From a virus, in IMG/VR virus record IMGVR_UViG_3300042731_003020, positions 1-31,383 of that record: DNA of 31,383 bases. One strand, 5' to 3'. This document shows, piece by piece, positions 22,545-30,858 of this stretch (its first letter is position 1; each line of letters opens with the position of its first letter). A program made the position numbers and the translations under genes. The notes beneath the pieces are model-generated. The model was not told the DNA's origin. It saw nothing but the letters and a program-made list of their open reading frames with translations, and made no database searches.

Positions 22545-22740
<196 letters not shown>

Positions 22741-22748
<8 letters not shown>

Positions 22749-23457: not shown

Positions 23458-24426
23458 TTAACTAAACTTTCCGCGCTCAGCCCACGGTGGGAGAATGAGT
23501 TCTCTGACGTGCGGCGGAAAACTAGGCCATTCGTCTTTCGTTTTGCATTCGTCATAAAGCCGCATATCCTGACGCCACATGGTATGTCCGATATGCCTGG
23601 CCTGGGCGTCAAGCGTGTAAATACCAATGGCGTAGGGTGGTTTTTTCTCCACCACCACAAAACAAAATGCCTTCACAGGGACGCCGACAGCTTTCAGGCC
23701 GGCCGTGTACATGGCGGCTTGCACATGATATCGGAAATCGCTGACGGTTCGCAGGAAGTCAGAATAACGGGCGCTGGCCGCTGTTTTTAAATCAATCGCC
23801 AGCCCGTGCGCCTCATTGAAGAAATCCACGCGAGAGCGGCAAAGTCTGGCCGTTTCCTTGTCCATCCAATACGGTGACCGTTCCGCCCATCCCTGTTCAG
23901 GATCGAGCAATATCGACGCCACGGGATGCGCCCGCACCGCGTCACGAATATTGTGGATTGTCTGCCAATCGCCAGGCGACCAAAACGGATCATTACCGGG
24001 ATTGTCTTTGATGATGGTCTTTCCGATAGTCTTTGCCTGCCATGCTCCATAGGCGGCAACCTGAGCCTGAGTCTTTGGTGTGATGGTTTTGGCATTCAGT
24101 TGTGCCGCGGTTGGCTTTTTCGGCTTGTCTGAATCGGGCATGTATTCCGCATCGAATAGCTCAGGCGTCAACACCAGGCAATGCAACGCTGAACCAAGAA
24201 TCATGGGCGGCGTTGGCGGTTCCGGGTGTTCCTTGCGCGTTTTGTACTCGAGCGGGCTGACGGCGATCTGGTCAAGAGCGTGCTTGCTGATGCCCGGTGA
24301 GCGGTGATAAATATGCTCGGGTATATCGTCGCGTAATCCCAATTTACTGAAATCATACTCAGGTTTTGCTAATTCCGTGCCGCTTTCCCCAGCATCGGTT
24401 TCCGGTTTGTCTGCTATGCTTCCCAT
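23458..24426 (-). CDS. RecE-like PD-(D/E)XK exonuclease
   Basis: The 322-aa protein resembles the exodeoxyribonuclease 8/PDDEXK-like domain (DUF3799 type). The N-terminal segment YHRSPGISKHALDQIAVSPLEY is typical. GSALHCLVLTP holds H82. RVDFFNEAHGLAIDLKTA holds D201, D212 and K214, the last two as the D-x-K of the nuclease core. FRYHVQAAMYTAG holds the conserved Y and Q. It would resect double-stranded ends 5' to 3' and hand the 3' strands to the RecT-like protein coded downstream. The start has GGAAGGTG upstream and overlaps the preceding gene by 13 nt, so the two are coupled. The catalytic residues look intact. Confidence 0.85.
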   Translation of the reverse strand: MGSIADKPETDAGESGTELAKPEYDFSKLGLRDDIPEHIYHRSPGISKHALDQIAVSPLEYKTRKEHPEPPTPPMILGSALHCLVLTPELFDAEYMPDSDKPKKPTAAQLNAKTITPKTQAQVAAYGAWQAKTIGKTIIKDNPGNDPFWSPGDWQTIHNIRDAVRAHPVASILLDPEQGWAERSPYWMDKETARLCRSRVDFFNEAHGLAIDLKTAASARYSDFLRTVSDFRYHVQAAMYTAGLKAVGVPVKAFCFVVVEKKPPYAIGIYTLDAQARHIGHTMWRQDMRLYDECKTKDEWPSFPPHVRELILPPWAERGKFS

Positions 24427-26122: not shown

Positions 26123-26308
26123 ATGAAAAAAACGCGATCAAAAGCCATTGAATCAGGCGATTCATTCTACAAAACCGGGAAACCTTGTAAAAAAGGGCAT
26201 TTTTCAAAGCGCATGACAATTGACGGGTCATGTACGGAATGTCGAATTGTCAATCAACGCACAGAGCGGGCAAAAATAAGGGAAAGGATTGCGACAAATG
26301 TACGGTAA
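26123..26308 (+). CDS. Small zinc-finger protein (C-H-C-C type)
   Basis: The 61-aa basic protein has the pattern YKTGKPCKKGHFSKRMTIDG, then SCTEC: C22, H26, C37 and C40 would hold one zinc. This 'G-x-P-C-x-x-G-H ... G-x-C-x-x-C' finger is common in small phage proteins and in the zinc-binding part of some HNH/endonuclease VII-type proteins, but here no nuclease domain follows. GGTGGGG lies upstream of ATG 26123. Its last 11 nt overlap the replication gene start. Confidence 0.65.
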   Translation: MKKTRSKAIESGDSFYKTGKPCKKGHFSKRMTIDGSCTECRIVNQRTERAKIRERIATNVR

Positions 26309-27092
26309 AATTTTTACCTCAATCTATGATGGGACACTGGTTGAAGATTGGCGGGCGTTGATCACATTTCAGCAATTGATTGTTTTGTCTGATGCGGATG
26401 GTGTTGTCGATATGACACCAAACGCAATATCCAGGCGAACAGGAATACCGATTGAACATATCACCAAAGGATTGAAAATACTGGAAAAACCTGACTTATG
26501 TAGCCGCACAGAGGGCGAGGAAGGACGGCGTATAATCCGCATGGATGAGCACCGGGAATGGGGGTGGCACATTGTCAATCATTCAAAGTACAAGCTGATC
26601 ACCAGCTCAGTCTCCAGACGCGAACAAAACCGGATTAATAAGCAAAATCAGCGAAAAAGACAGGCCGAAAAGTCAGAAAAGGTCAGCGAATGTCATCAAG
26701 TGTCATCAATGTCAGCGCATACAGATACAAATACAGATACAAATACAAGTAAAGACAAAACACTCGTCAATCCTGGCGGATCGACGGGCCCGGCCAAAGT
26801 TTCAATTCCCTATCAAAAAATACTCGACCTGTTTCACGAAAAACTTCCAGCATTGCCAAGGACTGAAAAACTAACCGAAAAGCGGCGCAGGTATATCAAG
26901 CGGTTATGGGTCGAGGACTCATTGCCAGACCTAGAAAATTGGGGAAACTTTTTCAGCTACGTTAGCCAGTCTGATTTTCTAATGGGAAGGGCGGCAAGCA
27001 ACGGGGATCGAAAACCATTCAAGGCAACACTGGAATGGATAACCAAACCGGAAAACTACATTAAAATTCTTGAGGCCAATTATCATGGGTGA
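26298..27092 (+). CDS. Phage replication initiator-like protein (winged-helix N-terminus, O/DnaD-like layout)
   Basis: The 264-aa protein has an N-terminal domain (1 to about 105) resembling phage replisome organiser winged helices: MYGKIFTSIYDGTLVEDWRAL, then SDADGVVDMTPNAISRRTGI, ITKGLKILEKPD. A polar linker (about 106-160) contains the DNA-level repeat array. The C-terminal domain (about 165-264) has the familiar phage order YQKILDLFHEKLPALP, RRRYIKRLW, NWGNFFSYVSQSDFLMGR, FKATLEWITKPENYIKI. Such proteins bind the origin and bring the host helicase loader. ATG 26298 has GGAAAGG upstream. As in lambda O, the origin may lie inside this gene. Confidence 0.8.
   Translation: MYGKIFTSIYDGTLVEDWRALITFQQLIVLSDADGVVDMTPNAISRRTGIPIEHITKGLKILEKPDLCSRTEGEEGRRIIRMDEHREWGWHIVNHSKYKLITSSVSRREQNRINKQNQRKRQAEKSEKVSECHQVSSMSAHTDTNTDTNTSKDKTLVNPGGSTGPAKVSIPYQKILDLFHEKLPALPRTEKLTEKRRRYIKRLWVEDSLPDLENWGNFFSYVSQSDFLMGRAASNGDRKPFKATLEWITKPENYIKILEANYHG
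26672..26754 (+). repeat. Candidate replication origin: iterons plus AT-rich 12-bp repeats
   Basis: Five 9-10 bp units follow head to tail: GTCAGAAAAG (26672), GTCAGCGAAT (26682), GTCATCAAGT (26692), GTCATCAAT (26702) and GTCAGCGCAT (26711). A further partial copy (TCAGCGAA) occurs at 26648-26655. Directly after comes ATACAGATACAA twice in tandem (26719-26730, 26731-26742), then a third imperfect copy to 26754. The 10-bp period does not keep the codon frame, so it cannot be a protein repeat. The AT-rich 12-mers would make an easily opened element. Confidence 0.6.
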
Positions 27093-27642
27093 TTTTAGGG
27101 AAAACAAAGCGATTGAACCGAGCAACGCCATGCCGCCCACATTCAGCGGGCTTGCAGATGATTTGAAAACCATGATCGAAACACGCTGGTCATCACGCAA
27201 AAAGCCATTCCCGGCTTGTGTGCCTGGTGATCCATACGCCGCGATTGATTGGTTCATCAAGATGATGCCAGGTCAAAAGCCATACGAGGCTGTCAGACAA
27301 ACATCAACCGTGAAGGGAACAAAATTCTGGATATGGCCATATGCCGACCGCATGAAATACCTGGCGCGAAAATTTTTTGATGCTGATACCGATTTGCAAA
27401 ACTTTGTCATCGCAGCACGTCAAGACCGCATTGAATGGCGTGGCGATGATATGAAAACCTTTTTGATGATCATTGAAGAAACCGAGGAAATGCACCGCAT
27501 TGGTGTTGATGCATACCGCAAGAAAATCAGACCACCAATCAGGGAACTAATCATGAAAATGCACGGGAAAGTAAAACAGGATCAAAAAAGCATTGAAGAA
27601 AATCGTCAAGAAGCGATGGCCTATGTGGAATCGCAATCATGA
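27085..27642 (+). CDS. Hypothetical protein of the replication region
   Basis: The 185-aa protein starts at ATG 27085 inside the end of the initiator gene (GAGG RBS). It is mostly helical, with FSGLADDLKTMIETRW, DPYAAIDWFIKMM, FWIWPYADRMKYLARKFF and a basic C-terminal helix. The position directly after the initiator is the slot where helicase loaders (lambda P-like) often lie, but I see no nucleotide-binding loop and no family signature. Its stop overlaps the next start (ATGA). Confidence 0.58.
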   Translation: MGDFRENKAIEPSNAMPPTFSGLADDLKTMIETRWSSRKKPFPACVPGDPYAAIDWFIKMMPGQKPYEAVRQTSTVKGTKFWIWPYADRMKYLARKFFDADTDLQNFVIAARQDRIEWRGDDMKTFLMIIEETEEMHRIGVDAYRKKIRPPIRELIMKMHGKVKQDQKSIEENRQEAMAYVESQS

Positions 27643-30184: not shown

Positions 30185-30364
30185 ATGAAACAATTATTGA
30201 AAGATACAATTTCTGATCTGGTCACAGATTTTTTATATTACGACCGTAAAGTGGATGATCAAATCGGTCGTGGCGATATAGAAAAAATGATTGAGAGCAA
30301 GGAAACAAGCGTTGACGAAATCGTTGAAGAATTTAAAGCGAATATTGAAAGGGCGCTAAAATGA
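30185..30364 (+). CDS. Small acidic helical protein
   Basis: ATG 30185 opens a 59-aa frame with a strong AAGGGGAAAGGG upstream. The protein begins MKQLLKDTISDLVTDFLYYDRK and continues GDIEKMIESKETSVDEIVEEF. It is entirely helical in character. The stop overlaps the oxygenase start (ATGA), so the two are co-translated. No function seen. Confidence 0.6.
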   Translation: MKQLLKDTISDLVTDFLYYDRKVDDQIGRGDIEKMIESKETSVDEIVEEFKANIERALK

Positions 30365-30858
30365 AACAAATCGGAAAAATATTCACACATCAATTCACCA
30401 TCGACGAAGCAAGGCGCAATCGTATGGTTGAAATCATCAATGAGAATGCCGCGCATTCATCACGCCTGGCAGCACAAACAAACGGATGGTCAACAATTAA
30501 GTTCAAGCAAGGCACGCATCAAGAATGGCCTATGGCTGAGTATGTTGGAATGATTGCCGTTATGTTGGATGAAATCACCGGTCGTGCATTGCCTGTCAAG
30601 TATTGGTTTGTTGCATTGAATAAGGGTGGCCGTGTGATGATGCATAACCATAACCAATCTGATTGGTCAGCGGTGTTTTATCCACATGGTGTGAACTACG
30701 ACAGTGGTGGTGCAATCATGTTTGAGGATGGCACCACCATCAGGCCGAGGGCTGGGCTTGCGGTGTTCTTTCCTGGTACGTTAAATCATAGAGTCAGGTT
30801 GTACGAGGGTGAGAGCACGCGGCTTAGCGTTGCGTTTAATCGAGAACAGGGGGAATAG
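30361..30858 (+). CDS. 2OG-Fe(II) oxygenase-like protein
   Basis: The 165-aa protein matches the 2-oxoglutarate/Fe(II) dioxygenase superfamily, probably the 2OG-FeII_Oxy_5 type. KGGRVMMHNHNQSDWSAVFYPH supplies H95, H97 and D101 as candidates for the proximal iron ligands. GLAVFFPGTLNHRV supplies the distal H143, and STRLSVAFN supplies R154, the residue that usually binds 2-oxoglutarate. The short length means a minimal double-stranded beta helix. Such enzymes hydroxylate proteins, nucleic acids or small molecules; the substrate is unknown here. The last residues are coded by a 33-bp repeat. Confidence 0.72.
   Translation: MKQIGKIFTHQFTIDEARRNRMVEIINENAAHSSRLAAQTNGWSTIKFKQGTHQEWPMAEYVGMIAVMLDEITGRALPVKYWFVALNKGGRVMMHNHNQSDWSAVFYPHGVNYDSGGAIMFEDGTTIRPRAGLAVFFPGTLNHRVRLYEGESTRLSVAFNREQGE

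Follow-up and report, generated by a model that had tools for sequence, protein, structure and literature searches.

The window, by which we mean the whole 31,383-nucleotide stretch of viral DNA analyzed here, carries a replication initiator gene at 26298-27092 on the plus strand (ATG at 26298; 264 aa). The initiator matched PHROG 345, 'replication initiation O-like' (E 1.9e-25), PHROG 10469, 'DnaD-like helicase loader' (1.1e-22), and also PHROG 5810; a Pfam search gave nothing above the cut-off. An AlphaFold model, built from a 14-sequence alignment, predicts an N-terminal winged-helix-like domain, a long charged helix, a disordered linker, and a helical C-terminal domain. The pLDDT is below 50 at residues 129-166 and mostly 75-97 in the flanking domains. 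Comparing the model with the PDB by Foldseek, we obtained weak matches, mostly to winged-helix regulators and none with E ≤ 0.001, and sequence searches of the PDB gave no matches. Most of the repeat array described below lies in the part of the gene that codes for the disordered stretch, and a linker of this kind, as modeled, can tolerate a repeat-imposed sequence. The initial annotation had placed the array in the polar linker of an O-like protein. The inter-domain, disordered position and the PHROG 345 label agree with that description, but an hhalign comparison of the C-terminal domain with lambda O was not significant.

The next gene in the operon (27085-27642, plus strand) codes for a 185-aa product with no match in Pfam, PHROGs, or NCBIfam; its position alone would suit a helicase loader. 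In the early region, 30361-30858 codes for a 2OG-Fe(II) oxygenase-like protein (Pfam 2OG-FeII_Oxy_5, 1.8e-13). On the minus strand, 23458-24426 codes for an Exonuclease VIII-like PDDEXK protein (PHROG 412, 1.7e-79; DUF3799), a recombination gene that lies upstream of a strand switch near 25.5 kb. A change of sign in the GC skew had been predicted near the array, and the skew does turn near 25.5 kb. Gene orientation, however, switches at the same place, and the skew therefore gives an origin no independent support.

Inside the initiator gene, at 26672-26720 on the plus strand, lies an iteron array of five GTCA-headed direct repeats of 9-10 bp. Reading the sequence directly, we find the GTCA cores at 26672, 26682, 26692, 26702, and 26711, at spacings of 10, 10, 10, and 9 bp, which bears out the five tandem units of 9-10 bp first annotated. 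The cores occupy all three codon frames of the gene (2, 0, 1, 2, and 2, respectively). Tandem Repeats Finder delimited the iteron part as 26682-26717 with a period of 10. The first iteron, GTCAGAAAAG, shares little beyond GTCA with the other four, and the last one runs two bases into the following tract (AT, 26719-26720). All five are direct repeats, and a check for dyads found no inverted repeat in the array. When synonymous codons were redrawn for the same protein, a five-long GTCA chain arose in 14 of 20,000 trials. Among the chains of five 4-mers at 8-12 bp spacing in the 31-kb window, the only one besides GTCA belongs to a TAGCCG hexamer array at 22549-22741. That array holds about 32 copies of TAGCCG/GAGCCG/TCGCCG and, on the minus strand, codes for a Gly-Tyr-Ser-Asp repeat peptide of ~67 aa (GSGYGSGYGYG...) with an ATG near 22748.

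Directly after the iterons, the plus strand reads ATACAGATACAA ATACAGATACAA ATACAA at 26719-26748, a tandem repeat with ACARA every 6 bp and a candidate DNA-unwinding or single-strand loading element. Tandem Repeats Finder returned 26719-26747 as 2.4 copies of ATACAGATACAA with a 100% match, which bears out the two perfect 12-bp units and partial third noted earlier. The ACARA units start at 26721, 26727, 26733, and 26739, with a spacing of 6, and share a single codon frame. Half of them are ACAAA, the tract being a mixed ACAGA/ACAAA version. A 12-bp-period run of at least 17 arose in 62 of 20,000 synonymous redraws of the same protein. The repeats of the iterons and of the tract are real, and their origin by chance is unlikely.

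The least stable 41-mer of the initiator gene begins exactly at 26719, and it stands at the 99.7th percentile of the window. The name 'AT-rich opening element' given to the tract by the initial annotation captures this low stability but undersells the sequence, in which a specific unit, ACAGA/ACAAA, is present. The accompanying argument, that a 10-bp period breaks the codon frame and points to selection on the DNA, holds for the iterons but not for the tract, whose 6/12-bp period keeps the frame. Because the tract keeps the frame, DNA-level selection on it rests on the comparison with other phages.

Linker repeats in relatives of the initiator

We collected eleven relatives of the initiator from viral contigs, eight of which are in the alignment, at 30-49% identity overall; none was a close relative of this phage. 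The N-terminal domain is conserved among the relatives, and the C-terminal domains vary between members. Their linkers carry GTNRC-type cores at 10-bp spacing, usually with a last step of 9 bp. The 10, 10, 10, 9 bp spacing of the window recurs in L007. The cores are spaced by five steps of 10 and then 9 in L003, by 10 and 9 in L005, by four steps of 10 and then 20, 9, and 9 in L008, and by 10, 10, and 10 in L011. In three relatives (L002, L004, and L012) the linker repeats are of another kind or less regular. As to the tract, L011 is without one and L008 carries GAA repeats instead.

Across the window and the relatives, 19, 14, and 12 cores fall in the three codon frames. Because all three frames are occupied, the encoded peptides rotate, as in VADCRKMSQ (L008) and VSECHQVSS (window). 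Conserved 10-bp units with drifting residues had been anticipated for related phages. In the eight relatives it is the spacing that recurs, in all three frames, and the core itself drifts. The repeats are conserved as DNA spacing while the peptide drifts, which is the pattern of an intragenic phage iteron origin.

The ACAGA unit across phages

Scanning for (ATACAG)4, we found at least 120 stretches, most of them in initiators. Among the matches listed, the stretches lie mostly on the coding strand, at a linker end read as TDTDTD, right after repeats that differ from phage to phage. These listed matches include 101 distinct proteins, of which 50 match PHROG 10469 (DnaD-like helicase loader), 41 a primosomal-protein family, and 40 a replication-initiation family, with overlapping counts. 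Repeated 6-mers (at least three copies) occur in the 110 bp upstream of 53 of 89 (ATACAG)4 stretches among the matches listed; the count is 20 of 89 for sequence lying farther upstream and 9 of 89 after shuffling. A scan for the pentamer form, (ACAGA)5, gave 54 contigs, mostly the same initiators with iterons and a tract read as QNRTEQ; iteron-like motifs lie within 40 nt upstream in 34 of the 54. Matches to named phages were few and mostly from Proteobacteria, and a genome scan found the layout of iterons and ACAGAT tract in Firmicutes and Actinobacteria genomes as well. The two-part layout, iterons followed by an ACAGA-type tract, recurs in at least about a hundred other phage contigs.

An unbiased initiator family was drawn by N-domain peptides only, independently of the tract, and comprised 41 genes after near-duplicate removal. 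Counting its members, which are related by descent and are not independent events, we find Thr coded by ACA in 113 of 113 cases in the tract, versus 160 of 529 in the rest of these genes. Ala is coded by GCA in 10 of 10 cases in the tract and in 252 of 880 outside it, and the GC3 of the genes ranges from 0.23 to 0.80. In the window's own family, the third base of Thr codons is A in 26 of 26 cases in the tract versus 34 of 116 outside. At least three ACAGA within 40 nt are present in 33 of 40 genes of the N-domain-drawn family, versus about 25% of synonymous resamplings. The tract of this family starts 14-15 bp after the last iteron core in 25 of 38 genes and 8 bp after it in 7 of 38. Members that have no TDTDTD read EQNRTEQ, that is, ACAGA at 5-nt spacing. 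ACAGA stays constant as the peptide changes from TDTDTD to QNRTEQ, and it is thus the DNA that is conserved and not the peptide. Melting alone was rejected as an explanation of the tract. The nearest-neighbour stability of ACA.GAT and ACT.GAT repeats is equal (-1.163 kcal/mol per bp for both), and the strict ACA preference is therefore not a melting effect.

Checking the hexamer alone in three frames, we find that initiators carry ACAGAT almost always in the TDTDTD frame; it is the pentamer form that tells DNA from peptide. Other proteins write TDTDTDTD with mixed codons, ACC, ACT, and ACG included. In initiator-like proteins, not all of which matched a PHROG, AEAEAEAE is mostly GCAGAA/GCAGAG. 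A GC-rich clear initiator (L237) has a GCCGAA tract. Four members of the KKSFxLYxD initiator group, which has another N-domain, carry an ACTGAT tract in place of ACAGAT (L175, L195, L199, and L201), and another member, L440, carries ACAGAT. The ACAGA unit is widespread, not universal.

Phage, plasmid, and bacterial origins compared

The lambda origin is annotated inside O and the P22 origin inside 18. In lambda, the minimal unwinding unit consists of two iterons and the AT-rich region, which is dispensable for O binding; the iterons are imperfect inverted repeats of ~19 bp that bind O dimers (PMC7466680). The window resembles both phages in having direct iterons in the linker-coding part of the initiator gene and then an AT-rich stretch on the coding strand. 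As in lambda, the array lies in the inter-domain linker, and a low-stability region is directly beside the iterons. The window differs in its 9-10 bp units without dyads, as against the ~19-bp inverted repeats of lambda. The AT-rich part of P22, ACAAAAGACAATATACAAAAGACAATAAATACAAATACC, contains three ACAAA units and that of lambda, ACAAAAGACACTATTACAAAAG, contains two. The units are present in P22 and more weakly in lambda, and they are less regular than the tandem tract of the window. Going by its published description, SPP1 oriL is alike in carrying repeats within the initiator's own gene (direct repeats inside gene 38, bound by gp38) with an adjoining AT-rich DUE (PMC6316719).

RK2 oriV, with its TrfA protein, shares with the window iterons in helical phase and repeated DUE units. 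In iteron plasmids such as RK2, however, the origin is outside the rep gene; the DUE units of RK2 are 13-mers, and the initiator belongs to another family. Binding of plasmid Rep proteins to a single DUE strand is sequence-specific, and none of the repeats is dispensable (PMC4081077). At oriC, the DnaA-trio and the DnaD recognition element are strand-specific opening or loading elements, according to two reports (PMC6669920, PMC8287927), and the DnaD element consists of pairs of 5'-TnnT-3' on one strand (PMC10201434). The likeness lies in a repeated short motif next to double-stranded binding sites, which at oriC guides strand-specific opening and loading. In contrast to the DnaA-trio, the units of the window and of the other phages are 5-6 nt long and not trinucleotides, and DnaA is not implicated. 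By inspection, TnnT is absent from (CTGTAT)n, the complement of the canonical (ATACAG)n, and present as TTGT in the ACAAA units of the window. The ydaU gene of Rac-SA53, a homologue of one initiator group, has a linker with repeats and GATACAGATACAGAT. An active origin, oriJ, is known in the E. coli Rac prophage (PMC3945230); in the K-12 copy of ydaU the units are decayed.

Reading of the array and its possible working

One could read the repeats as having no DNA function, a polar disordered linker having tolerated short repeats grown by slippage. The linker is predicted to be disordered, slippage accounts for identical codons within one gene, and TDTDTD also arises in unrelated proteins. Slippage would not, however, pick one unit in genes that differ so widely in GC3, with ACA at every Thr codon of the tract. 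Such a reading is also at odds with ACAGA/GCAGA being constant under varying peptides (TDTDTD, QNRTEQ, and AEAEAE), with the 10-bp spacing of the relatives' iterons in all three frames, and with the nearly fixed distance of the tract from the last iteron; we hold it to be very improbable. The array might, alternatively, be a regulatory site (initiator autoregulation, copy control, incompatibility, or an operator) and not an origin. Plasmid iterons can also serve copy control, and an array of binding repeats is not in itself proof of an origin. Yet the array is within the coding region and not at a promoter, and its pairing with a low-stability tract, at an almost constant distance, matches the layout of the function-tested origins of lambda and SPP1 (oriL). 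A purely regulatory role appears unlikely to us.

From the sequence comparison, we consider it well supported and probable that an intragenic iteron origin lies inside the initiator gene, with the ACARA tract as its opening or loading element. The initial annotation had proposed such a candidate phage origin, iterons and then an opening element, and the proposal is strengthened by relatives that keep the spacing and by a tract at a nearly fixed distance. In the working that we envisage, the N-terminal winged-helix domain of the initiator would bind the five GTCA iterons, whose spacing of about one helical turn would align the bound copies along the same face of the helix. Strain from this complex would fall on the adjoining ATACAGATACAA tract and open it, no other stretch of the gene being less stable. 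While the helicase is loaded, the strand exposed in this way, with its ACARA repeats, might be held by the initiator itself or by some factor that many phage-host pairs share.

The recurrence of the layout across phage contigs points to a shared DNA-opening signal that seems so far undescribed. Tentatively, we suggest that phages whose initiators differ in both terminal domains, and whose iterons differ too, may have one sequence-specific single-strand element in common: ACAGA, repeated at 5-6 nt intervals on the coding strand immediately after the iterons. It would be the phage equivalent of the DnaA-trio and would be read by a shared factor. Candidates would be a host replication protein (for example primase, helicase, or loader) and some feature that the initiators share. 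Searching the open-access literature for the tract sequence, we retrieved only unrelated papers, and in that literature the shared ACAGA unit seems undescribed. What is new here would be the evidence from comparison for an ACAGA repeat, sequence-specific and independent of reading frame, as a second origin element. The known intragenic origins are those of a few model phages, with a second element described only as 'AT-rich'. Our comparison suggests a defined, strand-specific repeated unit in many unrelated-looking phages, beyond what duplex stability and the peptide would call for. If this is true, origins in uncultured phage genomes could be found by a simple sequence signature. It would also make testable a long-open question, namely the way in which lambda-like initiators open DNA and direct the helicase to one of the strands.

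The origin reading could be right and ACAGA could still be kept for its complement, TCTGT, which contains a 5'-CTG primase start; the tract would then serve mainly for priming and only in second place for opening. DnaG starts at 5'-CTG in E. coli and at 5'-CTA in Bacillus and Staphylococcus (PMC5429622). Opposite each ACAGA or GCAGA, the complementary strand contains CTG, and opposite the ATAGA units of the relative L522 it contains CTA. Against this, the ACAAA half of the units in the window has no CTG, CTG is absent from the lambda and P22 tracts, and the ACAGAT tracts extend to Firmicutes and Actinobacteria genomes. A host-phylum comparison (PHROG 186 and 345, phylum of a Brevibacillus genome; PHROG 10469, class of an Azotobacter genome) yielded mostly DnaD-like or weak matches and very few tracts, and it speaks neither for priming nor against it. 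We regard priming as an improbable main reason for the unit.

A scan for ATAGA pentamers gave 12 contigs, and these are few because the unit contains a stop codon. A scan with the C-domain of the initiator led to six loci, and ATAGA units are present at one. The locus L522:985-1785 shares the C-domain, has another N-domain, and carries an ATAGA/AGAGA tract after GTCCCGACA repeats. Several contigs of the ATAGA scan (L660 ~3080; L661 ~1233; L664 ~2487; L666-L668) have TAGAA-type pentamers after iteron-like repeats, exactly at the end of the reading frame, and these tracts seem to be non-coding.
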